From an uncultured Lentisphaeraceae bacterium (GTDB lineage Bacteria; Verrucomicrobiota; Kiritimatiellia; RFP12; DVOR01), in NCBI GenBank assembly GCA_949282555.1, contig CASDPK010000002.1, forward strand, positions 1 through 64,000: a stretch of 64,000 nucleotides of DNA, in the 5' to 3' direction. The notes under the pieces were generated by a model. The model saw only the letters and a list, made by a program, of their open reading frames with translations. It had not been told where the DNA came from and searched no databases. A program made the position numbers and the translations under genes. Positions 20,772 to 51,301 of the stretch are shown in pieces; the stretch's first letter is position 1; every line of letters begins with the position of its first letter.

Positions 20772-21965
20772 TCAACTCAAAAGCTCAACCTTGGGCACCG
20801 CAAAATCCACCCACTTGGACGCGGAATCGTCGGCCCCGGGCGCGATACTGCGCGCGGCCGTGTCGTTGAAGGTGGCCACACGCAAAGCGGGGTCCACCCC
20901 CACGCACCTGCTCTCGAACGGCTTCCCTTCCCGGGCGGCAAGGATGGTTGCGACGAACTCGCGGTAAGCCTCGGCAAGGGCCGCGATGTAAGCGGCATCA
21001 TCGCCATAAGGCTCGGCAAAGCGGGTCTCCGCCTGCGTGGCCGCGACGGCGCCCTTGGGAGATTCCTCCGTGCGGACGCCATCCGGCGTGACGCGCACCC
21101 AGCGCTCCCCGGCACTCTGCCGCCAATGGACGGCCCCCTTGTCGCCATAAAGGTCAAGCACAAGGCCATCGGCCTCGCCAATGGCAATTTGGCTGGCGCG
21201 GATGGTTCCAAGGGCCCCATTGGCAAACCGGAGAAGCACGATGGCATCGTCGTCCAAGATACGCCCCGCGACGGCAGGACGCCCCACCGCACAAAGCGCG
21301 GCAAGTTCCTGTCCACTGGTCCACTCCGCCAAAAGAAACGCCGGGCCCGCGAGATCGTAAACCGCGCCGGCGGCGCCGCACCGGCGAGGATCGACGCGCC
21401 ACCCCGCAGAGCGGTTGCCCGCGGTCTCAAGCCGCGGTCCCATCCATCCATGATGATACGTCACGTCAATGCGGCGAATGTTGCCGATGCCGCCGGAGGC
21501 CACAAAGTCCCTCAATGCGCAAAGGGCGGGATAGAAGGGATACACATAGGCAGTGGCATAAATCTCCGGGCTCATGAGCGTGCGGCGCTTAAGGTTCTGC
21601 GCCTCGTCCATGTTGCAGCTCATGGGCTTTTCGGAGAAGACGGGGAAGCCGGCGTCAAAGGCGGCCATGGTCACCGGATAGTGCATGTTGTTGGGGGCCA
21701 CCACCGTCACAAGGTCAATCCGCTCCGGGCCCTCAACCTTGGATTCCCGACGGAACATATCGCGATAGACGCCATAGACGCGCTTGGGGTCGAGGCCCAA
21801 CGCTTTGCCCGTCTCAAACGACCGCTGCCGTGTTGAGCCGAACGCGCCACACACCACCTCCAAGCAACCGCTCGCCTCAATGGCCGCCCGATGGATGCGG
21901 CCCATGAAGGACTCCTGTCCTCCGCCGACCATCGCGACTTTCAGTTTTGTCTGTTGCTTTGTCAT
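20772..21965 (-). CDS. Gfo/Idh/MocA-family NAD(P)-dependent oxidoreductase
   Basis: The N-terminal Rossmann domain starts KVAMVGGGQESFMGRIH and contains the EKP motif (FSEKPMSCNM) that holds the catalytic Lys. A C-terminal alpha/beta substrate domain follows (YHHGWMGPRLETAGNRSAGW). These enzymes oxidise or reduce sugars and cyclitols; the substrate is not predictable. ATG 21965 is chosen for GGA at suitable spacing; ATG 21977 is possible. There is no signal peptide. The neighbouring Nif3-like gene gives no pathway clue. Confidence 0.88.
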   Translation of the reverse strand: MTKQQTKLKVAMVGGGQESFMGRIHRAAIEASGCLEVVCGAFGSTRQRSFETGKALGLDPKRVYGVYRDMFRRESKVEGPERIDLVTVVAPNNMHYPVTMAAFDAGFPVFSEKPMSCNMDEAQNLKRRTLMSPEIYATAYVYPFYPALCALRDFVASGGIGNIRRIDVTYHHGWMGPRLETAGNRSAGWRVDPRRCGAAGAVYDLAGPAFLLAEWTSGQELAALCAVGRPAVAGRILDDDAIVLLRFANGALGTIRASQIAIGEADGLVLDLYGDKGAVHWRQSAGERWVRVTPDGVRTEESPKGAVAATQAETRFAEPYGDDAAYIAALAEAYREFVATILAAREGKPFESRCVGVDPALRVATFNDTAARSIAPGADDSASKWVDFAVPKVELLS

Positions 21966-22094
21966 TTTACTTTCCATACAGACCGGATACACCCGGCCAA
22001 ACCGCTCTTATATTAGCGGGTTGAAGCGAAAAAAGCAATCACAGAAACAACTTTCCGGAGCCTGCGTTCTCCAAGTTACACCCTAGAACGCTTC

Positions 22095-48173: not shown

Positions 48174-49952
48174 TCAAAGGGCGGCAATGGGAATGGAGGC
48201 GCCGCCGGAGAGACGCGAGCGCTCGGCGGCAAAGGCCATGGCATGGGATTGGAGGCTGGCGTGGAAACGCTCGACATAAACGGCGGGCGGCAAGGTGCGC
48301 AAGGTGGTGATCCAGTCCGCCAACAGACCGTCGTTGCCGACGACATACGAGCTTTCATGCGTGGGGTGCCCACCCTCGAGGGCGGCGTCCCACAGCCAAG
48401 ACGCGCGGTCGGAGAAGCGGCGGATGAACAAGGTGCGGGCATCACCGCGGATTTCGCCATCGGTGAGGAAAATCTGCGTTTCGCGGTCACGCGCCCATGA
48501 AAAGCTTTCCATGATGTGGGAGACGGTGACGCCGCCCTCGAAGAGCAGATTCACGACTTGATGATCCACGGCGTCATTGTCGCACGCATAGACGCACCGT
48601 CCCAGCGGCCCACGCAAGGTCGCCTCAATCCCCGCCGGGGAGGCGTCGGGCAAGGCGTAACGCAGGTCGGTGCGTTCGCGCAACAGACGGATGGCCGAAA
48701 AGGGACACGTCCGCTCGATCGCGGCGGGGCACTCGAGGCAACGCGCCGCCGCACCCGCAGGCGCGGCCTCCGGGCGGAAATGCGAGCGTTCCCCGAAGGA
48801 TTGCACAAAGAGGCAACGCCGCCCAATCCACCACGCAAAGAGATCGAAATCGTGGCTGCACTTCTGCAAAATCATCGGGGTGCTGCGAACCGTGTTGCCG
48901 AAGGGTCCGCGGCAAAAGGCCTGGGCGGCCTTGCCATAACCCACGGGCTCCAAGTGGCGGATGCTGACCACTTCGCCCAGCGTTCCCCCGCGGATGAGTT
49001 CGGCGATTTTGGCGTAATAGGGCGTAAAGCGCAGGATGTGCCCCACCTGCACCAAGCGGCCCCGTTCGCGCACGGCGGCGTCGAGCGCCACGCACTCCTC
49101 CCACGTGGCCCCGACGGGTTTTTCCAACAGCACGTGGAGGCCCTGCGCCAAGGCCGTCTGCGCGGCCGGGAAGTGGAGCCGGTCGGGCAAGGCCACGATG
49201 GCGCACTCGGCCTCTCCCGCCGCGAGGGCCTCGGGCCAATCGGCAAACACGCGCGTTGGGGGCAATCCCAACCGCGCCGCCCATTCGGCCCGGACGGCCG
49301 GGTCTGGCTCGGCAAACGCCGTCACGCGCAAATCGCCGGGATGTTCCAGCGCCCAGCGCGCATAGACGCGCCCACGGTAGCCCATGCCAAGGATCACGGC
49401 GTCGAAGGGTTCCCGATGGCGCACCGAGAACTCGCACCCGCAGTAGATCTGCCGATACAGCCCCAACTCCGCCGCCCGACGGTTGGAGGACAGGAACCCA
49501 TCCTTCTTCTTGAAGTCGTAAGGGATGAACCGCTCGCCCCCCACCTCTCGCCCGACGGCATGGATGAGGGCGCTGCGCTTATGCGGCGACACGGTGAGGC
49601 TGGTGGTGAAGGCCGCGCAACGCAACCGCCCGAGCGCCTGCGCGGCCCGCGTCAGCGAAAAGCGGAAACACCGGGCACACCGCGCGCCGCCCTCGGCGCA
49701 CCCTTCGTATCCTTCGGCGACCTCGGCCTTCCAGCGTGCATGGTCGGGGGCATCCTCCACCAGTTCAATGCCCTCCGCCTCGGCCAACCGCCGCGCCGCC
49801 GCCAGACGGCGCAGATATTCCTCGTGCGGCCAAAGATTGAAGTCGGAGAAGAACAGCACCGGCTCCCAGCCATCCGCCTTCAGCACACGCACGCAATGCG
49901 ATGCGCAGACGCCGCAACAGGTGTGCAACAGCAGACGGCCTTTCCCTTCCAT
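48174..49952 (-). CDS. queH: QueH epoxyqueuosine reductase fused to a Gfo/Idh/MocA oxidoreductase
   Basis: One uninterrupted 592-residue frame encodes two enzymes. Residues 6-177 are QueH, which reduces epoxyqueuosine to queuosine in tRNA anticodons: HTCCGVC (C12, C13, C16), CARC (C92, C95), FTTSLTVSPHK and YCGC (C171, C173) are all present. After the short junction VRHREPF, residues 183-592 form a complete Gfo/Idh/MocA oxidoreductase with GMGYRG, EKPVG and a CLECP...CPFSA element. There is no stop, frameshift or strong internal start at the junction (about 49400-49425); an internal GTG at VRH is a weak candidate. The gene follows the phosphohexomutase by 14 bases. The fusion is unusual and its joint function unknown. 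Confidence 0.85.
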   Translation of the reverse strand: MEGKGRLLLHTCCGVCASHCVRVLKADGWEPVLFFSDFNLWPHEEYLRRLAAARRLAEAEGIELVEDAPDHARWKAEVAEGYEGCAEGGARCARCFRFSLTRAAQALGRLRCAAFTTSLTVSPHKRSALIHAVGREVGGERFIPYDFKKKDGFLSSNRRAAELGLYRQIYCGCEFSVRHREPFDAVILGMGYRGRVYARWALEHPGDLRVTAFAEPDPAVRAEWAARLGLPPTRVFADWPEALAAGEAECAIVALPDRLHFPAAQTALAQGLHVLLEKPVGATWEECVALDAAVRERGRLVQVGHILRFTPYYAKIAELIRGGTLGEVVSIRHLEPVGYGKAAQAFCRGPFGNTVRSTPMILQKCSHDFDLFAWWIGRRCLFVQSFGERSHFRPEAAPAGAAARCLECPAAIERTCPFSAIRLLRERTDLRYALPDASPAGIEATLRGPLGRCVYACDNDAVDHQVVNLLFEGGVTVSHIMESFSWARDRETQIFLTDGEIRGDARTLFIRRFSDRASWLWDAALEGGHPTHESSYVVGNDGLLADWITTLRTLPPAVYVERFHASLQSHAMAFAAERSRLSGGASIPIAAL

Positions 49953-49966
49953 CGTGCGCGATCCCC

Positions 49967-51301
49967 TCAAATGGCCGCCTTCGCGGCCGCAAGCATCGCC
50001 TCCAATTGGGCCGGGGTGCGGGCCTCGCCAGCCAAGCGGAGAATGGGCTCCGTGTTGGACGGGCGCACGCCAAACCACGCATCGGCCCAATCAAGGCGCA
50101 CGCCGTCAAAGTCGATGCGTCGCTCAGGGGCGCCCAGCAAGCGCGTGACGGCGGCCTCGACGCGGGCGACGGCGGCGGGGCGATCGTCCACCCCGCGGAT
50201 GTTCACCTCGCCGGAAGCGCAGTAACGCCCGGTGATCGGCGCCAACAACGCGGAAAAAGTCTTCCCCTGCCGTTTGGCCTCGGCCACGATGCCCAACGCC
50301 AAGACGGCGGACAATTCGCCGCTGTCGCACCAATGGAAATCGCGGAAGTAGTAGTGCCCCGCCACTTCGCCGCCGCAGACGCCGCCGCGCTCACGCAGGG
50401 CCGTCTTTGCGAACGCCGCGCCCACCTTGACCATCAGCGGCTCAAACCCATCCTCGCGCAAGGTCTCAATCACGCCGCGGGAGGTGCGGACATCATGCAC
50501 CACCGTCTCGCCCGAACGCCCAAGCAGCCGGGCATAAAGGGGAATCATCGCATCGGGCGGGACGAACGCGCCCGTCTCGTCAACGAACGCCACGCGGTCG
50601 GCATCGCCATCGAACATCAGTCCGAGATCCAACCCCCGTTCCCGCACCGTCCGCACGAGCGCCTCGCGGTTGGCGGCCTCCAGCGGATTGGGGCCATGAT
50701 GGGGGAAGGCCCCGTCGGGCTCAGCGTTGAGGTAGACGGCCTCCGACCCGAACAGGTCTTTGGCGAGGATGCCGGCGGCGCCGTCGGAGCAATCCACGGC
50801 GAAGCGCAGCCCCGAAAGATCGGGCAAACGCGCACGGAGCCACGCCACGTAGTCCCCCAACCGGTCAATGACCCGAACGGCGCCGGGACACGCCGCCTTC
50901 GGGGGCAACGTGCCGGCCTCAATCCACGCCTCCACCGTCTTCAGGCCGAGATCATAGCCGCACGGGAGCGCCCCGGCCTTGGAGACTTTGAGGCCGTTGT
51001 ATTCCGGCGGATTGTGCGAGGCGGTGATCATGACCGACGCTCCGTAACCGCCCTCGGCGGTGAAGAAATAGACCATCGGCGTGGTGGCCAGCCCCAAATC
51101 GTCCACCGCCGCGCCGGCCTCGGAGAGACCGCGCACAAGCGCGTCGCGCAAAGCGGGGGAGGAGGTGCGCGCATCGCGCCCCACCAGCACCTTCCGTGCG
51201 TCCAGCAAAGCCGGGAGGCACCGCCCCACCTGATAGGCAAGCTCGGGGGTGACGTCGGCGCCGAAAACACCGCGGATATCGTAGGCCTTGAACGCTTTCA
51301 C
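49967..51301 (-). CDS. Phosphomannomutase/phosphoglucomutase
   Basis: A 444-residue alpha-D-phosphohexomutase with four domains: AYDIRGVFG at the start, phosphoserine loop TASHNPPEYNG, metal loop DGDADR, sugar-binding GEVAGHYYF (GExSGH type) and C-terminal RPSNTEPILR. It interconverts hexose 1- and 6-phosphates for nucleotide-sugar synthesis. Mannose versus glucose preference cannot be read reliably. Translation starts at GTG 51301 with GGAGG eight bases upstream; in-frame codons further up overlap the preceding gene. Confidence 0.93.
   Translation of the reverse strand: MKAFKAYDIRGVFGADVTPELAYQVGRCLPALLDARKVLVGRDARTSSPALRDALVRGLSEAGAAVDDLGLATTPMVYFFTAEGGYGASVMITASHNPPEYNGLKVSKAGALPCGYDLGLKTVEAWIEAGTLPPKAACPGAVRVIDRLGDYVAWLRARLPDLSGLRFAVDCSDGAAGILAKDLFGSEAVYLNAEPDGAFPHHGPNPLEAANREALVRTVRERGLDLGLMFDGDADRVAFVDETGAFVPPDAMIPLYARLLGRSGETVVHDVRTSRGVIETLREDGFEPLMVKVGAAFAKTALRERGGVCGGEVAGHYYFRDFHWCDSGELSAVLALGIVAEAKRQGKTFSALLAPITGRYCASGEVNIRGVDDRPAAVARVEAAVTRLLGAPERRIDFDGVRLDWADAWFGVRPSNTEPILRLAGEARTPAQLEAMLAAAKAAI

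Follow-up and report, generated by a model that had tools for sequence, protein, structure and literature searches.

A single frame joining epoxyqueuosine reductase QueH to a Gfo/Idh/MocA oxidoreductase in a genus of Kiritimatiellia

The 64,000-nucleotide stretch of DNA analysed here (the window), from an uncultured Lentisphaeraceae bacterium, carries a gene in which the tRNA-modifying enzyme QueH appears to run into an oxidoreductase of the Gfo/Idh/MocA family, which raises the questions of whether the fusion is real and what the second enzyme might do there. The gene occupies 48174-49952 on the minus strand and is open from the ATG at 49952 to its stop codon (592 codons plus stop). Residues 7-178 (49419-49934, minus strand) form the QueH domain (Pfam PF02677, E 8.6e-47, 159.9 bits against a curated cut-off of 23.5, profile positions 1-174 of 175), which also matches Thermotoga maritima QueH (7lc5/9dco, E about 2e-20) and contains the cysteine motifs TCCGVC (11-16), RCARC (91-95), and YCGC (170-173). 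A joint of six residues, HREPFD (179-184; 49401-49418, minus strand), leads into an NAD(P)-binding Rossmann domain at residues 185-305 (49038-49400, minus strand), which is recognised by the Pfam model GFO_IDH_MocA (E 1.5e-20, 74.5 bits against a cut-off of 24) and carries a GxGxRG loop and an EKP motif (277-279) with Lys278 at 49121-49119. The remaining residues, 306-592 (48177-49037, minus strand), correspond to the C-terminal substrate domain of the family, with a weak match slightly under the cut-off of its Pfam model (PF22725) and a structural match. Among PDB chains, T. maritima QueH matches residues 5-183, while sugar and inositol dehydrogenases match from residue 185 onward. Thus, as the original prediction had proposed in placing the junction at 49400-49425, a complete QueH with all its cysteine motifs and a complete oxidoreductase (185-592) share one frame.

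An assembly error at the junction, or a frame open by chance, was ruled out by comparison within the genus and with independent metagenome-assembled genomes (MAGs). The MAG that contains the window measures 2.4 Mb, and its nearest named relatives are MAGs of Kiritimatiellae and Candidatus Spyradenecus, which were recovered from sheep, yak, water buffalo, and further sources; the genus belongs to the gut flora of animals. A QueH match is found in 15 of 17 genomes of the genus, the window's own counted; the two that lack one have completeness values of 77% and 84%. The whole fused protein aligns without a stop codon in 12 of these genomes, its own included, from residues 1-4 to 591-592 and with 67-100% identity, while in the remaining three QueH lies inside frames of 596, 597, and 559 amino acids; every QueH found in the genus therefore sits in one long frame. 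The named loci L062-L074, which overlap with the 12 aligned genomes and come partly from identical genomes, show the fusion too (12 complete and one cut by a contig end).

The same alignments bear on whether the two halves could be made as separate proteins. The GTG codon of residue 176 in the window could in principle start translation of the oxidoreductase alone, but an internal start near the joint is not conserved in any position across the aligned fusion sequences, because the codon of residue 176 varies (GTG, ATG, ATT, ATA, or GCG) and residue 190 is either Met or Leu, and this candidate was rejected. The joint itself follows the consensus CGCE(F/Y)SxRHxxx(F/Y)xxxxLGxGYRG with neither insertion nor deletion in any aligned species. 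Moreover, each half has a dN/dS of about 0.02-0.3 (Nei-Gojobori method, own script, with saturation for some pairs), which shows purifying selection on each of them. Given these data, and the agreement among MAGs from different animals and studies, separate products or an assembly artefact are scarcely credible, and the gene is presumably translated as one polypeptide.

Outside the genus, the two enzymes are encoded by separate genes. QueH is present in 164 of 388 sampled genomes of the phylum, and none of those outside the genus matches the fused protein along its whole length. The QueH proteins of sister families in the order stop a few residues past YCGC, and none of the 15 long-frame QueH cases elsewhere in the phylum carries this oxidoreductase. 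No oxidoreductase gene of this kind lies within 1.5 kb of queH at the stand-alone loci examined, or in the 14 kb around it in the two genomes closest in QueH (G053 and G042), where queH and the oxidoreductase gene lie on different contigs. Matches on plasmids concern the oxidoreductase half only and never cover 80% of the query; the stand-alone oxidoreductase family occurs on plasmids of Deinococcus and Thermus. The separate and unlinked genes that the original prediction had named as evidence against a meaningful fusion are thus seen outside the genus but not inside it.

A different QueH fusion was observed in the sister-family genome G030 (L119:3881-5014), where QueH likewise has a second enzyme C-terminally, in this case a TadA-like tRNA adenosine deaminase. 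In another genome of the same family (G021, locus L140), queH adjoins a tadA gene. The wobble base is the target of TadA as well as of QueH.

A tree built from 51 oxidoreductase domains groups the 14 fused ones in a single clade (support 100/99), which is nested in a group from the same order and lies beside a stand-alone paralogue from the same genomes. The tree is most simply read as one fusion event on the stem lineage of the genus, to which a duplicated stand-alone gene of the order would have supplied the oxidoreductase. Within that stem, the order of the fusion and of the sequence changes described below is indistinguishable. The closest paralogue is encoded at G000 C14:38092-39327 and L115:6961-8187, and in genome G007 it sits, as judged by eye, between apparent arginine-synthesis genes and metG.

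The fused copy is the only QueH of its genome, and of 33 residues that do not vary among 40 stand-alone QueH proteins it retains 32. The cysteines for the metal centres (CC, CxxC, and CGC) are kept across the fused copies, so that the whole domain and all cysteine motifs are common to this half and the known QueH proteins (PF02677; T. maritima 7lc5 and 9dco). The known proteins compared here are stand-alone and about 175-200 amino acids long, whereas the C-terminus of the fused QueH continues into a second enzyme; CCGPC of known QueH reads CCGVC in the fusion, as it also does in some stand-alone QueH. The QueH half is probably the only epoxyqueuosine reductase of the genome, because TGT, QueA, and QueC are present while a genome search gave no match to QueG; the QPTR transporter family was not found either. 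To judge from its family and these pathway genes, the N-terminal half would act as an ordinary QueH, converting epoxyqueuosine to queuosine at tRNA position 34.

The oxidoreductase half has retained the residues expected of an active enzyme. The GxGxRG loop, Lys278 of EKP, His367-Asp368-x-Asp370, and four cysteines are all present, and none of the 14 fused copies has lost its catalytic or cofactor residues. The catalytic-His motif HDFD (367-370; 48843-48854, minus strand) occurs in every one of these copies and is near-invariant across fused and stand-alone relatives, as are the GxGxRG loop and EKP. The cysteines C405, C408, C416, and C453 (48594-48740, minus strand), arranged as C-x2-C-x7-C plus a fourth in GRC, are at least 90% conserved in both groups. 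A large stand-alone Gfo/Idh/MocA subfamily from PVC bacteria, Deinococcota, Bacillota, and others, 38-56% identical to the fused half, shares the GxGxRG loop, EKP, HDxD, and the C-x2-C-x7-C and GRC cysteines, and differs from it in having H-x-G-G-D in place of Y-x-x-G-N, Tyr instead of Leu at position 424, and no QueH attached. We found no named function for this subfamily. The IolG inositol dehydrogenase model (TIGR04380) scores 72.7 bits on the fused half and does not reach its cut-off of 355. In addition, the Asp of the K-D-H triad, four residues before the catalytic His, is replaced by Gln363 in the window, assuming that His367 is the catalytic one, and it is lacking throughout the subfamily.

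It had been suggested that the partner might reduce the iron-sulfur centre of QueH, that is, serve as a built-in reductase passing electrons from NAD(P)H. QueH needs two electrons, we know of no natural electron donor for it, and the four cysteines could hold a metal. Such a transfer is nevertheless highly improbable, because enzymes of the Gfo/Idh/MocA superfamily move hydride without a flavin, and the four-cysteine set is common to stand-alone relatives that lack QueH, those of Deinococcota included. A flavin domain is absent from the fusion, the residues for the family's own chemistry are kept, and QueH of all other genera works without this domain. The four cysteines probably constitute a structural metal site of the whole subfamily.

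The changes in the fused oxidoreductase are concentrated in one place. The motif at residues 536-540 (48333-48347, minus strand), YVVGN in the window, reads Y-x-x-G-N in all 14 fused copies and H-x-G-G-D in 31 of 31 stand-alone relatives compared, while one more distant stand-alone relative (L083) has HGGAD. When each clade in turn was left out of the count, 59 positions were invariant in the clades other than the fused one, and 45 of them are kept by all 14 fused copies. Four were never kept, namely Y424 (to L), H536 (to Y), G538 (to V, L, M, or I), and D540 (to N); three of these are fixed to one residue, and three of the four fall within the single motif H-x-G-G-D. By the same count, the paralogue clade keeps 48 of 49 positions and has no never-kept site, and in the clades of L050-52 and Trueperaceae, too, a few residues that are invariant elsewhere have changed and become fixed. 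The amount of change in the fused clade is thus not unique, but its place is.

Structural comparison suggests what lies at this place. The AlphaFold2 model of the fusion has a pLDDT of 90.6 and a pTM of 0.80, and it sets the 536-540 motif between residues 528-534, which form a poorly ordered loop, and the helix of residues 535-553. Residues 180-590 of the model match the structures of the oxidoreductive sulfoquinovosidase ArSqgA (8qc3) and of scyllo-inositol dehydrogenase with Z scores of about 35-36. These enzymes, including the scyllo-inositol/L-glucose dehydrogenase of Paracoccus laeviglucosivorans (5yab, 6ktj), have the fold, the EKP Lys, and the catalytic His in common with the fusion and are about 17-20% identical to it; Asp191 of the K-D-H triad in the comparison dehydrogenase is not conserved in the subfamily of the fused half. 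Residues 181-589 of the model align to residues 6-372 of the Paracoccus enzyme, which would put residue 536, counted from the alignment end points rather than residue by residue, near His318, a position held by Tyr in the fusion. His318 of that enzyme is supplied by a loop of the neighbouring subunit and touches the substrate; with Ala in its place (H318A), kcat/Km for scyllo-inositol falls from 190 to 0.56 per min per mM (PMC5969746). The substrate pocket has probably been re-specialised, because position 536 would by its place match this substrate-contacting His, and the fixed change of His to Tyr suggests a changed substrate.

Taken together, we favour, with a probability of roughly 0.55, a bifunctional protein with a separate active site in each half, of which the second serves its own substrate and shares no electrons with QueH. 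According to this scheme, a single joining of the oxidoreductase to queH would have taken place on the stem lineage of the genus, where the pocket would also have been altered from H-x-G-G-D to Y-x-x-G-N together with Y424L. The C-terminal half would remain an NAD(P)-dependent hydride-transfer enzyme that oxidises or reduces a polyol, sugar, or cyclitol-like compound. Both activities and the altered specificity are inferred.

Alternatively, the oxidoreductase may act on queuosine itself, as the original prediction had considered for queuosine-related sugars or cyclitols, and carry out a redox step on the cyclopentenediol (or on an added sugar), on tRNA or on the free base, to yield an undescribed derivative. 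The retention of the fusion throughout the genus and the alteration of the pocket at otherwise invariant sites would agree with this, the latter lending the idea a slight gain, and by our own reasoning the cyclitols and cis-diols used by relatives of the same fold resemble the cyclopentenediol of queuosine. Against it, the stand-alone family lies away from queH in sister genera and is carried on Deinococcus and Thermus plasmids, the two genes are not linked outside the genus, and comparison with its paralogues shows no basic charge shift in the fused domain of the kind that tRNA binding might bring. We also know of no Gfo/Idh/MocA enzyme that acts on whole RNA. A role in queuosine modification is hence a possible but doubtful explanation.

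A fortuitous fusion, which the original prediction had also considered and in which the halves would have only a promoter and a frame in common and the oxidoreductase would have drifted or become a mere scaffold, seems unlikely. Gal80 of yeast is a non-catalytic relative of Gfo/Idh/MocA enzymes and offers a parallel for such a scaffold. Chance joining would explain the origin of the gene, as the two partners are unlinked everywhere else, sister genera included, and another QueH of the same order has joined the unrelated partner TadA; alone, it fails to explain the fixed changes in the pocket. The conserved catalytic and cofactor residues and the low dN/dS speak against loss of function, and the fixation of the new residues is incompatible with drift.

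In the open literature, with most subscription journals outside the search, nothing relevant was found on a QueH fusion or on a Gfo/Idh/MocA enzyme linked to epoxyqueuosine; both halves belong to known families, while their combination was not found there. The fusion is fixed genus-wide, and its dehydrogenase appears to be changed where a relative touches its substrate, so a single protein could be used to probe a possible extra queuosine step or a link between the carbohydrate redox state and tRNA modification. If the queuosine reading is true, the genus would produce a queuosine derivative with an NAD(P)-dependent dehydrogenase of the cyclitol type that is part of the same protein as the last enzyme of queuosine synthesis. 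If the second half is unrelated to queuosine, it would present a clean case of a domain that switched specificity in the lineage where an unrelated enzyme joined it.

The genes around the fusion vary by species, and no conserved neighbour hinting at a pathway was found at the fusion loci examined; apart from the fusion itself, no constant linkage was found. A phosphoglucomutase/phosphomannomutase gene (49967-51280, minus strand), which ends 14 bases upstream of the fusion, is seen in this position only in the window among these loci and is probably co-transcribed with the fusion here. At eight other loci (L062-L065, L068, L069, L073, and L074), the 60 bases upstream of the fusion contain a -10-like hexamer (TAnAnT) whose end is 6-12 bases from the ATG, and they show no obvious ribosome-binding site, a layout that resembles that of leaderless transcripts; the window's own fusion, with another gene so close upstream, is without this hexamer. 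Finally, a second and distant Gfo/Idh/MocA gene is present in the window at 20772-21968 (minus strand), and the genome has 11 matches to this family in total.
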